Source: Cyanobacteria bacterium QS_8_64_29 (GTDB lineage Bacteria > Cyanobacteriota > Cyanobacteriia > Cyanobacteriales > Rubidibacteraceae). From it: a stretch of DNA of 40,022 nt. The translations under genes were made by a program, and so were the position numbers. Every line of letters starts with the position of its first letter. The stretch's first letter is position 1. Under the pieces are notes generated by a model. The model worked only from the letters and a program-made list of their open reading frames with translations, did no database searches and was not told the origin of the DNA. Below are positions 3,073-32,401 of the stretch, in pieces. The DNA lies in assembly GCA_003022125.1 (NCBI GenBank), contig PXQH01000026.1, positions 1-40,022 of the forward strand, given 5' to 3'.

Positions 3073-4413
3073 GTGACGCGAGCGAGCGGACCGCGCGGGC
3101 CTGCCCTGTGGCAGACCCTGCGCGCGATCACCCACCCCATCCGATTTTTGGAGGCAAGCGCCGCGCGCTATGGCGATCCGTTCGTGGCGCGCGTGCTGGG
3201 ACACAACTCGCCGCCAGTGGTGTTTGCTGGCACCCCCGATGCCATCCGCGCCATCTTTGAGGCCCCGGCCGATTGCTTTGAGCTCGGCCGCCTGACACAC
3301 GTCTTTACCCCGCTGACCGGCGATCACTCGCTGGTGCGGCTCGATGGCGAGCGCCACCGGCAGCGGCGGCAACTGCTCGCACCGCCATTGCACGGCGAGC
3401 GCCTGTACCGCCACGGTCCCTTTATTTGCCAAACTACCCAAGCCATTGCCGCACGGCTGCCGCGCCAGGGGGACTGGCGGCTGCGCCCCTGGATGGCGGC
3501 CATTACTCTGCCGGTCATCCTGCGCGTCGCGCTCGGCCGCACCCAGGGGGCGCGCTGCGAGCGCATGCAGTCGCTGCTAGAGCGCGTGCTGGCGGTGACC
3601 GCGCACCCGCTCTACTCCACGCTATTTTTCTTTCCACCGCTGCAGCGGGACTGGGGCCGCTGGAGTCCGTGGGGGCATTTTGTGCGCCTGCGGCAGCAGC
3701 TCGACGCGTTGCTCTACGCCGAAATTGCCGAGCGCCGCGCTAGCGGCGGCGATGGTGGCGACGATGCCCTCAGCATGCTGCTGGCTGCCCAGGACACCAA
3801 TGGCAACCCCCTCACCGACACCGAGCTGCGCGACCAGCTCATGACGCTGTTGTTGCTGGGTCATGAGACGACTGCCTCCTCGCTCGCTTGGGCCCTGCGC
3901 TGGATCCACGCGCTGCCGGCCATCGAGCGCTGCCTGCGCCAGGAACTGGCCCAGCTGGGCCCCCAGCCCGATCCCAGCGCGATCGCGGCCCTGCCGTACC
4001 TGGATGCCGTCTGCCGCGAGACCTTACGCATCCATCCGGTTGCCCTAATCGCGCAGCCGCGGGTCCTGGCGCAGCCATTTCCGCTGCAAGGCGTTACCTA
4101 TCCGCCCGGCGCCGTCCTGGTGCCCTGCATCCAGTTAGCGCACCGCCGGGCGGCGGCGTTCCCCCAGCCCGAGCGCTTTAGGCCCGAGCGATTCTGGGGC
4201 GAAGGACCTGCCCCCTACACCTACTTGCCCTTTGGGGGCGGCGCGCGCGCCTGCCTGGGCGCCGCCCTGTCTTTGTATGAAATGAAGCTGGCGATCACGA
4301 CGCTGCTGTCGCACGTGCAGCTCGAGCTGCGCGAGCCTGCTGCGGCACATCCCGTGCGGCGCGGCATCACCATGGTGCCGGCGGGTAGCGTGCGGATGGC
4401 CGTTCGGGCCTGA
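3073..4413 (+). CDS. Cytochrome P450, CYP110-like (third of tandem array)
   Basis: A 446-residue P450 with GHETT in the I helix (residues 263-267), ETLR in the K helix and the haem loop FGGGARACLG with Cys394 as ligand. The GTG at 3073 is chosen because it gives a start aligned with the other copies; a GAAGG lies about 5 bases upstream. It is 18 bases after the decayed copy, so the three genes were probably one transcript. The I helix has Leu-Gly-His-Glu where the first copy has Ala-Gly-His-Glu, and the haem loop lacks the Arg-Arg pair, so substrate range may differ. Reaction: ferredoxin-driven hydroxylation of a lipid-like substrate is the family expectation; the actual substrate is unknown. 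Confidence 0.92.
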   Translation: MTRASGPRGPALWQTLRAITHPIRFLEASAARYGDPFVARVLGHNSPPVVFAGTPDAIRAIFEAPADCFELGRLTHVFTPLTGDHSLVRLDGERHRQRRQLLAPPLHGERLYRHGPFICQTTQAIAARLPRQGDWRLRPWMAAITLPVILRVALGRTQGARCERMQSLLERVLAVTAHPLYSTLFFFPPLQRDWGRWSPWGHFVRLRQQLDALLYAEIAERRASGGDGGDDALSMLLAAQDTNGNPLTDTELRDQLMTLLLLGHETTASSLAWALRWIHALPAIERCLRQELAQLGPQPDPSAIAALPYLDAVCRETLRIHPVALIAQPRVLAQPFPLQGVTYPPGAVLVPCIQLAHRRAAAFPQPERFRPERFWGEGPAPYTYLPFGGGARACLGAALSLYEMKLAITTLLSHVQLELREPAAAHPVRRGITMVPAGSVRMAVRA

Positions 4414-28777: not shown

Positions 28778-30013
28778 TCAGGCATCGGCGGGGCCCACGG
28801 CTGCGATCGCCGCCTCCAGCGCCAGCAAGACGTGCGTCCAGTGCGTGCCGCCTTGGCAGAAGGCAATGTAGGGCTCGCGCAGGGGGCCATCCGCCGACAG
28901 CTCGGCCGTGCTGCCCTCAACGAAGGTACCGCCGGCCATGACCAACTCGCTGTCGTAGCCGGGCATGGGGGCCGGCACCGGCTCCAGGTGCGCGTCCACC
29001 GGCGAGTGCTGCTGCAGGGCGCGGCAAAACGCCACCAATTTATCGCGCGAGCCCAGCCGGATGGCTTGGATGACATCGCGCTGGGGATCCGCAGGGCCGG
29101 GATTAACGGCATACCCCAGGCGGTGGAAAGCCCGCGCCATAGCGTGGTTGCCCTTGAGGGCTTCGCCCACTACCTGGGGCGCCAGGAACAGCCCTTGGAA
29201 CAGCAACCGGTTGGGAGCGAGCGTGGCGCCGCCGGCGCTGCCAATGCCGGGCGCGGTCAGCCGGCAGGCGGCTGCCTCCACCAGATCGGCCCGGCCGGCC
29301 ACGTAGCCGCCGGCGGGAGCCAGCGTGCCGCCCGGGTTTTTGATCAGCGAGCCCGCGATGAGGTCGGCGCCTACCTGAGGCGGTTCCTGCGCTTGGGCGA
29401 ACTCGCCGTAGCAATTGTCGACCAGGCAGATCGCCTCCGGGTTCTGGCGCTTGACGCGCGCGACAATGCCCTCAATGTCGGCAATGGATAGGCTCTCGCG
29501 CCAGGCGTAGCCGCAGGAGCGCTGGATCAGGACTAGGCGCGTGTTGGCGCCCACAGCCTCCTCGAGCGCCGCCCAGTCGAGGCGCTGGCCTTCTGTTAGC
29601 GGCAGCTCCCGGTAGCCGACGCCGAACTCACGCAGCGATCCCTGCCCGCGCCCGCGCAGGCCGATGACTTCCTCCAGCGTGTCGTAGGGGGAACCCGCAA
29701 CGGCCAGGATCTCGTCTCCCGGGCGCAGGACGCCAAACAGCGCGCAGGTAATCGCGTGGGTCCCCGAGACAAAGTGGCCGCGCACGAGAGCTGCCTCAGC
29801 CCCCACCACGCGGGCAAAGATGCCATCGAGGGTCTCGCGCCCCAGATCGTCGTGTCCGTAGCCGGTGCTGCCGGCAAAGTGCCGGCTGCCCAGCCGGTAG
29901 GCCCGAAAGGCTTCCAGGACTTTGGCAAGATTGTATTTGACTTGGGCGTCAATTTCGCCGAAGATCGGGACGAGTTCGGTCTCGACTTGCGATAGCAGCT
30001 GCCAACGGTCCAT
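28778..30013 (-). CDS. Methionine gamma-lyase/aluminium-resistance family PLP protein
   Basis: A 411-residue PLP fold-type I protein of the family usually named methionine gamma-lyase family or aluminium resistance protein (YnbB-like). The PLP lysine is in GSLIKNPGG, and FAGSTGYGHDD and LVDNCYGEF are other landmark blocks. The true reaction is not established for the family; C-S lyase activity is predicted. ATG at 30013. It is divergent from desC, with a 97-base gap that contains a hairpin. Confidence 0.9.
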   Translation of the reverse strand: MDRWQLLSQVETELVPIFGEIDAQVKYNLAKVLEAFRAYRLGSRHFAGSTGYGHDDLGRETLDGIFARVVGAEAALVRGHFVSGTHAITCALFGVLRPGDEILAVAGSPYDTLEEVIGLRGRGQGSLREFGVGYRELPLTEGQRLDWAALEEAVGANTRLVLIQRSCGYAWRESLSIADIEGIVARVKRQNPEAICLVDNCYGEFAQAQEPPQVGADLIAGSLIKNPGGTLAPAGGYVAGRADLVEAAACRLTAPGIGSAGGATLAPNRLLFQGLFLAPQVVGEALKGNHAMARAFHRLGYAVNPGPADPQRDVIQAIRLGSRDKLVAFCRALQQHSPVDAHLEPVPAPMPGYDSELVMAGGTFVEGSTAELSADGPLREPYIAFCQGGTHWTHVLLALEAAIAAVGPADA

Positions 30014-30110: not shown

Positions 30111-30965
30111 ATGACGAGCGCATCAACTTCTCCCGCTCCGCCCCGAAAACTGCTCTGGTCGGTCGTTTTCTACCTGGGCGCCATCCACGCCCTGGCGCTG
30201 CTCGCGCTGTGGCCGGCCACTTTTAGCTGGCCCGCCGTGGGTGTGGCGCTGCTGCTGCACTGGATAACCGGCGGATTGGGAGTAACGCTAGGCTTTCACC
30301 GCCTGGTCAGCCATCGCAGCTTTACAGTGCCCAAGTGGCTGGAGTACTTGCTGGTTACCTGCGGCACGCTCTCGGCCCAAGGTGGGGTCATCAATTGGGT
30401 AGGGCTGCACCGCATGCACCACCGCTACTCCGACACCGAGCCCGACCCCCACAATGCCAACGCTGGCTTTGGGTGGAGCCACATGGGTTGGATGCTCTAC
30501 GACATTCCGGCCAACCACGCCGTGTACCGCTACACCAAAGACATCGCCGGCGATCCGGTGTATCGCTTTCTACAAAGGAACTTTATTTCGCTGCAGGTCG
30601 TTTTGGGCGGACTGCTCTACCTGTTGGGGGGTTGGCCCTTTGTCGTCTGGGGCGTCTTCGTTCGCCTAGTGGCCGTATTCCATTGCACGTGGTTCGTCAA
30701 CAGCGCCACGCACGCCTTCGGCTACCGCAACTTTGACTGCGACGATCTGTCCAAAAACTGTTGGTGGGTGGCCTTGGTAACCTACGGCGAGGGCTGGCAC
30801 AACAACCATCACGCCTATCCCTACTCGGCCCGCCATGGCTTGCGCTGGTGGGAGATCGACCTCACCTGGGGGATGGTTCGGGTCCTGCAGGCCCTGGGCC
30901 TAGCACGCCACATCAAGCTGCCCCCGGCCAGCGCTAAGGCCGGTACGCCCAACCCATCGCAATAG
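30111..30965 (+). CDS. desC: Acyl-lipid Delta-9 desaturase
   Basis: A 284-residue membrane di-iron desaturase that puts the first double bond into membrane-lipid acyl chains, using ferredoxin. The three His boxes are present: HRLVSH (from residue 63), HRMHH and HNNHH. Hydrophobic pairs flank the first two boxes (LALLALWPATF and LYLLGGWPFVVWGVFVRL). It matches cyanobacterial DesC; the lipid position (sn-1 or sn-2) cannot be read. ATG at 30111. GATAAT lies at 30102-30107, too close to the ATG to be its own -10 unless the mRNA starts at the ATG. The stop overlaps the convergent zinc-ribbon gene. Confidence 0.95.
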   Translation: MTSASTSPAPPRKLLWSVVFYLGAIHALALLALWPATFSWPAVGVALLLHWITGGLGVTLGFHRLVSHRSFTVPKWLEYLLVTCGTLSAQGGVINWVGLHRMHHRYSDTEPDPHNANAGFGWSHMGWMLYDIPANHAVYRYTKDIAGDPVYRFLQRNFISLQVVLGGLLYLLGGWPFVVWGVFVRLVAVFHCTWFVNSATHAFGYRNFDCDDLSKNCWWVALVTYGEGWHNNHHAYPYSARHGLRWWEIDLTWGMVRVLQALGLARHIKLPPASAKAGTPNPSQ

Positions 30966-31277
30966 CGAGCAACAAGGCGCTGGCGATCGCAGCGCCAGCG
31001 GGATCCAAACCGCCAGCAGCACCAGCGCGATCGCCGCTATAAGGGGCCACCCCCAAAAGCGCGCGCCCGGCGTTCCCCGCCAGCGCCAAACGCGCCGGGC
31101 GGGGTAGCTGCTGGGCTGCTCGATGGCCGGCCGCCCGGCCACGGGGGTAAAAATCTGCTGGCAGCGATCACAGCCCAGCGCCTCGGTGAGGGCAATGCGC
31201 CGCAGTTGTCCGCCGCGGCGGCAAGGGCAAGGATAGACGGCGTCCAGATCCAGGGGCCGAGCTTGCCGGGAAGGCAC
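30900..31277 (-). CDS. Zinc-ribbon membrane protein, probably frameshifted near its end
   Basis: The N-terminal part has LDLDAVYPCPCRRGGQLRRI and then LTEALGCDRCQQIF, a four-Cys zinc ribbon, followed by a basic linker and a membrane helix (LIAAIALVLLAVWIPLAL). I recall similar proteins of about 110-130 residues across cyanobacteria, of unknown function. They usually end with a second membrane helix. Here the frame instead gives a Cys/Arg-rich tail to 30900, while another frame encodes AIASALLLAIAMGWAYRP and stops at 30934-30936. A single-base loss between about 30982 and 31003 would explain this. The GTG at 31277 is the start. The tail overlaps the end of desC on the other strand. Confidence 0.72.
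   Translation of the reverse strand: MPSRQARPLDLDAVYPCPCRRGGQLRRIALTEALGCDRCQQIFTPVAGRPAIEQPSSYPARRVWRWRGTPGARFWGWPLIAAIALVLLAVWIPLALRSPAPCCSLLRWVGRTGLSAGRGQLDVAC
30976..30996. repeat. HIP1-centred palindrome at the frameshift
   Basis: GGCGCT and AGCGCC flank GCGATCGC (30983-30990), with one unpaired G at 30982. It would be a perfect 20-base palindrome without that base. HIP1 is the frequent cyanobacterial octamer. The site lies where the zinc-ribbon gene changes frame. Confidence 0.7.
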
Positions 31278-31344: not shown

Positions 31345-31367
31345 CCTGATGCGATCAAGTGGCTAAA

Positions 31368-31439
31368 AGCGGGTAACGCGATTCGAACGCGCGACATTCA
31401 CCTTGGCAAGGTGACGCTCTACCGCTGAGCTATACCCGC
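31368..31439 (-). tRNA. trnG-GCC: tRNA-Gly (anticodon GCC)
   Basis: A 72-base cloverleaf on the minus strand: the acceptor GCGGGTA pairs with TACCCGC, with discriminator T. The D arm is AGCTCAGCGGTAGAGC, the anticodon stem-loop CACCTTGCCAAGGTG with anticodon GCC, and the T arm carries GTTCGAATC. The 3' CCA is not encoded, so the CCA-adding enzyme is needed. It decodes GGC and GGU. Confidence 0.97.
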
Positions 31440-31480
31440 CCGTTTGCGCTACTTAATGTGTCACAGCCATTGGGGCGCTG

Positions 31481-32044
31481 TCAATGCGCTTGCGAGCGCT
31501 CTGGGTCCTCCGAGACCGGCAGCACGGGGGAGGTACCGTCCGGGGCGAGCTCGTGATCGGCCGCTGGCGGCACTTGCCGCATGAGGTTGGCCATCTCGAG
31601 CGCGTTCATGGCGTAGTCCCAACCCTGGTTGGTTTTGACGCCCGCCCGCTCGAGCGCCTGCTGCATGGTCTCGGCAGTGACGATGCCATAGATTGCCGGT
31701 ACGCCGCTCTGGAAGCCCGCCGCGGCAATGCCTTTGGCCGCCTCGCTGGCAACGTAATCAAAATGCGGCGTCTCGCCGCGAATGAGCGCCCCCAGGCAGA
31801 TGATGGCGTCGTAGCGCCGCGACGAAGCCAGCCGCCGCGCCACCAGCGGGATTTCAAAGCTGCCCGGCACCCAGGCGTAGTCGATCTGGTCGCCTTCGGG
31901 GCTGGTATCGAGGCCGTGGCGCTTGAGGCAGTCCTGGCAGCCGGCCAGCAGCTTGCCCGTCACCAGATCGTTAAAGCGGCCGATAACGACCGCCAGCCGC
32001 AGCGAGCCCGGATCGGGGGCAAGATGGCCTTCAAAAACTGCCAT
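31481..32044 (-). CDS. ribH: 6,7-dimethyl-8-ribityllumazine synthase
   Basis: A 187-residue lumazine synthase catalysing the next-to-last step of riboflavin synthesis. Blocks seen are [42 protein letters not shown] and [11 protein letters not shown]. The last ~30 residues form a loose acidic, proline-rich tail beyond the usual ~155 residues. It begins 9 bases after psbZ; the psbZ-ribH pair is, as I recall, common in cyanobacteria, so co-transcription is likely. ATG at 32044. Confidence 0.96.
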
Positions 32045-32053
32045 GCGGGCCGC

Positions 32054-32233
32054 TCAGACCACAAAGAAGTTCAACACGCCCACCAGTAGGACCAGCGCCA
32101 CCCAAATGCTGGACCCCACGTAGAGAATGGGTTGGGCGTTGTTGCCCCCGGCCAAAACCACCGGCGCCCCAATGACCAAGGCGAATGACAGCACGACCAA
32201 CGCCGTTAGCGCGAGTTGAAATAGGATGAGCAT
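32054..32233 (-). CDS. psbZ: Photosystem II protein PsbZ
   Basis: A 59-residue protein with two membrane helices joined by a short loop (IGAPVVLAGGNNAQPILYVG), the typical PsbZ design; PsbZ is a core-edge subunit of photosystem II (about 62 residues in relatives). The ATG at 32233, with GGGAGAA 8 bases upstream, gives the start MLILFQLALTALVVLSFAL. A longer frame to 32284 would add a non-membrane segment and is rejected. It is transcribed with ribH. Its presence shows that the organism makes a conventional PSII. Confidence 0.97.
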   Translation of the reverse strand: MLILFQLALTALVVLSFALVIGAPVVLAGGNNAQPILYVGSSIWVALVLLVGVLNFFVV

Positions 32234-32401
32234 CAGCTTCGTTCTCCCAACGCAGCCTTGCACGATGGCAGAAAACGCCCGCACGGAGCGCTTCTCCGTG
32301 GCAGCTAACCTATCAGATCCCGCCGGCAGCCTGGTGTAAGGAATTATTAACTGGCCCGGCGGCGGTGCGCTGCTGCGATTGCCTTTATTTATTTTTATAA
32401 C

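Follow-up and report, generated by a model that had tools for sequence, protein, structure and literature searches.

A displaced C-terminus in a cyanobacterial zinc-ribbon gene as the likely scar of a gene loss

The window analyzed here is a stretch of DNA of 40,022 nucleotides from Cyanobacteria bacterium QS_8_64_29 (contig PXQH01000026.1, our C26). It contains a gene for a small zinc-ribbon membrane protein that appears to have two ends, one in the annotated reading frame and one in another frame. The main question is which of these ends is the old one and how the two came to be separated. Is it a matter of recoding during translation, of an error in the sequence, or of the history of the locus?

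The two ends of the zinc-ribbon gene

The reading of this region depends on three features:

30900..31277, minus strand: zinc-ribbon membrane protein gene, frame 0 open reading frame (GTG start, 125 aa, stop at 30902-30900)
30934..30980, minus strand: probable remnant of the ancestral C-terminal helix with its stop, in the other frame (SALLLAIAMGWAYRP and stop), assigned by end-anchored family profile and codon score
30111..30965, plus strand: convergent fatty-acid desaturase gene (PF00487), whose last codons, at about 30930-30965, overlap the end of the zinc-ribbon gene

The translation of the open reading frame runs to ...VWIPLALRSPAPCCSLLRWVGRTGLSAGRGQLDVAC. The frame 0 product starts with the zinc ribbon (YPCPC...GCDRC) and continues with one hydrophobic helix ending WIPLALRSP, after which it reads APCCSLLRWVGRTGLSAGRGQLDVAC, a Cys/Arg-rich tail with DVAC as the final residues. 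The frame two bases on reads ...AAIASALLLAIAMGWAYRP and has the tail SALLLAIAMGWAYRP, with a stop at 30936-30934. Both translations confirm what the preliminary description had noticed, namely that the annotated frame turns into a Cys/Arg-rich tail while another frame gives a helix ending WAYRP and a stop.

The Cys pattern and the conserved Trp residues are present, and 16 of 18 family-invariant columns are retained; of the other two, one Trp is deleted and one Ile is replaced by Leu. Since so many invariant columns are kept, the protein with the frame 0 tail may still be functional. Compared with relative L003, six residues including a family-invariant Trp are absent ahead of the first helix. 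The 99-aa head shares 45-57% identity with seven family orthologs. Searches of Pfam and NCBIfam gave no family above its cut-off for the window protein (DUF6629, E = 0.014, is below its own), and the family profile had no match in the Protein Data Bank at E 0.1.

Relatives were collected from 53 of 60 genomes and 34 named contigs, and they include all nine genomes of the window's taxonomic family, its own among them. The family profile was built from 55 sequences after identical ones were merged; 16 of the 80 loci were excluded as paralogous, truncated or divergent (L032, L040, L058, L060, L063, L065, L066 and L074-L082). Most full-length relatives end in a second helix followed by W-L-A-Y-R-R or a close variant, with looser C-termini in a few (for example, L030, L054 and L063), and thus resemble the alternative frame at their ends. 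The Cys/Arg-rich tail is the C-terminus of none of the 80 loci read, and on this point the preliminary description survives. The window itself has no second helix of the W-L-A-Y-R-R type with an in-frame stop, only a short out-of-frame remnant. A search of the whole order with the family profile gave zinc-ribbon matches at 1e-12 in 360 of 388 genomes, in some of them probably to a paralog only. All of the 150 matches listed, outside of which weaker matches lie, span the tail (to model position 132-133 of 133) and have no internal stops.

Scoring of all possible junctions with the whole-protein profile failed to separate the frames (97.1 bits for the best shifted reading, 95.7 for frame 0), and an end-anchored test of the tail was added for that reason. 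In all six frames of the window, every stop context 12 or more residues long was scored with the last 22 family columns. The alternative tail ranked first of 1107 with 16.2 bits, the runner-up having 10.9, while the frame 0 tail scored -3.9. The alternative tail also lies above 450 further stop contexts of this genome, the best of which reached 9.7 bits. Shorter pieces score lower than the 16.2 bits of SALLLAIAMGWAYRP (GWAYRP 9.1, AMGWAYRP 10.1). There is a weak alignment of frame 0 (SLLRWV) to the beginning of the second helix. From the ends of the relatives and the rank in the end-anchored profile, the old end of the gene is most likely the one in the alternative frame. A continuation in the third frame, VPALALAGGSLMWRARPR, equals the best whole-protein score; we rejected it, as no stop codon terminates it within the stretch read and it runs antisense to the conserved end of the desaturase gene.

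Codon statistics, trained on 16 long open reading frames of the window, gave the first 99 codons 3.8 bits when read in frame 0 and about -36 when read in either other frame. Over the next 14 codons frame 0 falls to -10.4, against -1.4 for the alternative frame and -1.8 for the third one. As a null we took 7030 windows, each of 14 codons in their true frame, and removed the gene concerned from the training set each time; a true frame scored -10.4 or less in 0.47% and the difference between the two frames was as large in 0.21%. The codon usage of the tail speaks against frame 0 and not for one particular other frame, since the alternative and third frames score alike. From LRSP to the stop there are 87 nt in L003 and 44 nt in the alternative frame of the window, which is thus 43 nt shorter (1 mod 3).

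The palindrome and signals for recoding

Two features lie at the place to which the preliminary description had assigned the switch:

30976..30996: palindrome with one extra base around HIP1, GGCGCTG-GCGATCGC-AGCGCC, arms of 6 bp
30983..30990: HIP1 octamer GCGATCGC, within LRSP in frame 0

HIP1 is strongly over-represented in this genome, with 1980 copies in 2.22 Mb compared with 247 for the backwards control; the window has 37 where 1.5 are expected from composition. No other HIP1 site among the 37 has arms as long as these, of 6 bp with one extra base; by base composition the window should have about 0.05 such palindromes and the genome 2 to 3. A second HIP1 octamer (31027-31034) is located in the same small gene, only 44 nt from the first. 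A review of HIP sequences (PMC4390886) links them to DNA methyltransferases and describes such over-representation as maybe a by-product without selected function.

The palindrome is real. In frame 0 the bases of the octamer encode part of L-R-S-P, matching LALRSP of relatives such as L003 and L005. As the HIP1 bases read family-like in frame 0, the switch lies beyond the octamer, downstream in the gene. With the whole-protein profile the best junctions score equally at 30981-30984 and at 30942-30951, some of them in the third frame. The comparison thus narrows the switch only to an interval, from about 30984 to about 30950, on the gene-downstream side of HIP1. The position of HIP1 at the scar may be coincidental.

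Slippage at the hairpin or programmed frameshifting had been put forward as the cause. The arrangement of the frames would fit programmed -1 ribosomal frameshifting yielding both tails, and there is one weak, relaxed re-pairing site, GGTTGGG, at 30953. However, the canonical slippery heptamer X_XXY_YYZ is absent from the whole zinc-ribbon gene, and the only run of at least four equal bases in 30900-31020 is CCCCC at 30921, far past the switch and inside the desaturase end. Stems are predicted for the RNA at z = -1.04, with 32 of 200 shuffles as stable, and among the matches listed relatives encode the tail in a single open frame. We regard programmed frameshifting as extremely improbable. Neither form of this proposal is supported, and the gene that is missing from the locus points instead to gene loss and decay.

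The missing neighbor and the convergent desaturase

The following genes flank the region described above:

28778..30013, minus strand: methionine gamma-lyase family gene (PF06838), a neighbor of the desaturase in relatives too
31367..31440, minus strand: tRNA-Gly(GCC), upstream neighbor, also in 7 of 18 other loci scanned
31481..32044, minus strand: ribH (lumazine synthase, PF00885), upstream neighbor, also in 22 of 65 other loci
32054..32284, minus strand: upstream neighbor, an open reading frame which we take to be psbZ-like, also in 19 of 65 other loci

Elsewhere in the window, two cytochrome P450-like genes are found close together (116-1654 and 3073-4413).

Gene order was compared in 65 other loci (L002-L030, L033-L066, L073 and L075), of which L014/L038 and L030/L057 appear to be duplicate records. 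By tblastn, the next gene on the same strand after the zinc-ribbon gene is proA-type in 63 of the 65, or 61 of 63 without duplicates, with identities from 39% (L063) upwards; the exceptions are L065 and L066. This gene is a glutamate-5-semialdehyde dehydrogenase by NCBIfam NF001221. It is absent directly downstream of the window's zinc-ribbon gene, and its ortholog is also absent from the genome (99.95% complete), where the sole ProA copy (31%, contig C50) passes the NCBIfam cut-offs for ProA itself. All eight other genomes of the family have the proA-type ortholog adjoining the zinc-ribbon gene or, in G003, its relic. In the order, a proA-type match at 1e-90 was found in 356 of 388 genomes, and the window genome is not among them. 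Several order genomes that lack the ortholog match the zinc ribbon only weakly, probably through the paralog, while in others the proA-type gene is present without any zinc-ribbon match; given both, the order-wide lists were not read for co-loss of the two genes.

The locus otherwise resembles those of an uncharacterized cyanobacterial protein with a zinc ribbon and two C-terminal helices, encoded before the proA-type gene. It shares the zinc ribbon and the first helix with this family and, where the flanks show them, the same upstream tRNA-Gly, ribH and psbZ. It differs in a second helix that is short and out of frame, in having no proA-type gene behind it, and in the six missing residues.

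Could the frame change be only an error that arose in sequencing or assembly of the GC-rich hairpin around HIP1, the true gene being in frame with a shortened second helix? The analysis covered one assembly of the genus, and the DNA fold of the segment is somewhat stable (z = -1.87, with 11 of 200 shuffles as stable). However, a one-base correction would still leave the helix about 14 residues short of that in L003, with a hydrophobic stretch of 13 residues vs. 24 by our delimitation. Moreover, the proA-type gene is missing from the assembly as a whole, which makes the locus a rearranged one in any case. We consider such an error quite unlikely as the explanation.

In L038, L039, L041, L042, L043 and L048, which belong to another family, the order is zinc ribbon, proA-type gene and convergent desaturase, and in all of these except L038 the methionine gamma-lyase gene comes after the desaturase, as in the window. 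This three-gene order was seen outside the window's family only; the loci from the 60-genome search have flanks of about 1.5 kb, in most too short to show the desaturase. Within the family the desaturase gene keeps methionine gamma-lyase as its neighbor, but the pair is remote from the zinc-ribbon gene. The two sites are, for example, at 828882 and 3526868 in G004 and at 1361978 and 816968 in G006, each a single contig.

The desaturase of the window extends 9-11 residues beyond its eight closest relatives at the C-terminus (7-8 compared with L091, L093 and L094), exactly in the stretch of overlap. The overlap is 32 nt to the old stop of the zinc-ribbon gene and 66 nt to its frame 0 stop. The old stop, at 30934, adjoins the position where related desaturases end.

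Gene loss and decay of the zinc-ribbon gene

We interpret the anomaly, with a probability of roughly 0.7, as an evolutionary scar in which the zinc-ribbon gene decays at a site of gene loss, and not as a programmed frameshift. The comparison rests on a single genome of the genus (1 of 1). By comparison the proA-type gene is gone from this lineage, and the 3' ends of the zinc-ribbon and desaturase genes now overlap tail to tail. Deletion of the middle gene would be the easiest route, because some relatives of another family have the zinc ribbon, the proA-type gene and the convergent desaturase in this order. If that order is old, it would have been broken in the relatives of the window's family and its middle gene deleted here; the alternative route would be a rearrangement that lost the proA-type gene. 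Compared with L003, the net loss of 43 nt shortens the second helix and throws the remnant SALLLAIAMGWAYRP with its stop out of frame; with a length of 1 mod 3, a single small deletion within the helix can account for both. In its present reading the gene would yield a protein whose zinc ribbon and first helix are followed by a novel tail of 26 residues, in part antisense to the desaturase.

The loss of the proA-type gene and the deletion in the helix may have been the same or separate events. Parsimony would speak for one deletion or junction that starts within the zinc-ribbon helix, takes in the proA-type gene and reaches the end of the desaturase, covering loss of gene, helix and desaturase stop at once, with the likeness of WAYRP and its stop to the family arising by chance. 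However, none of the other 1106 stop contexts comes within 5 bits of the alternative tail, whose stop adjoins the ancestral desaturase end. A remnant of the proA C-terminus, sought in 30901-30980, was not found (scores 13-18, null median 18). A single junction of this kind is in our view improbable, and the retained stop at 30934, near the ends of related desaturases, favors separate events.

Is the frame 0 product a selected, functional single-helix variant that is not decaying at all? The zinc-ribbon residues are retained, and an intact second helix is also missing in L065/L066 and L058/L060. Against this, the codon usage of the frame 0 tail is atypical, the tail is partly antisense to the conserved desaturase end, and the six residues with the family-invariant Trp are gone before the first helix. 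We think a selected variant unlikely.

Decay of the zinc-ribbon gene is plausible because it is damaged in other lineages as well. In L058 and L060 (Hyellaceae CSU_1_1 and Pleurocapsa CCALA 161) the zinc ribbon and first helix are kept and the second helix is broken, as in the window; unlike the window, they have in-frame stops and retain the proA-type gene. The stop breaks the second helix at the same place in both genomes. L065/L066 resemble the window in keeping the zinc ribbon and first helix, in lacking the second helix and, like the window's genome, in having no proA-type ortholog but only a copy of 29%; their hydrophilic tail is a different one. G003, which represents a different genus of the family, has a relic of 57 aa (L075, 1462-1632), its second Cys pair damaged, between tRNA-Gly and the proA-type gene; the zinc-ribbon gene is thus damaged in two of nine family genomes, the window's and G003. 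The paralogous zinc-ribbon gene of the window genome (L032, contig C20) is interrupted by a repeat of roughly 105 bp (1145-1249) that introduces a stop. The repeat has inverted ends, ATACCAATT/AATTGGTAT, and 45 matches in the genome including itself, none of them on the window's contig; it looks like a small non-coding mobile element.

Another pertinent question is whether the second helix serves the neighboring proA-type enzyme, so that loss of that gene frees the helix to go. An intact helix is absent in both lineages without an adjacent proA-type gene (the window genome and L065/L066) and in 3 of 61 distinct loci with one (L058, L060 and L075). Helix loss and proA-type adjacency give 0.0005 in a Fisher test, a value that ignores relatedness and that we do not use as evidence. 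The lineages are few, and a mechanical effect of the gene loss would give the same pattern; we find a role of the helix in serving the enzyme very doubtful.

In summary, comparison of gene order turns a suspected recoding site into what is probably an ordinary scar of gene loss. The zinc-ribbon and proA-type genes, matched in 360 and 356 of 388 genomes of the order, form a widely retained cyanobacterial gene pair.
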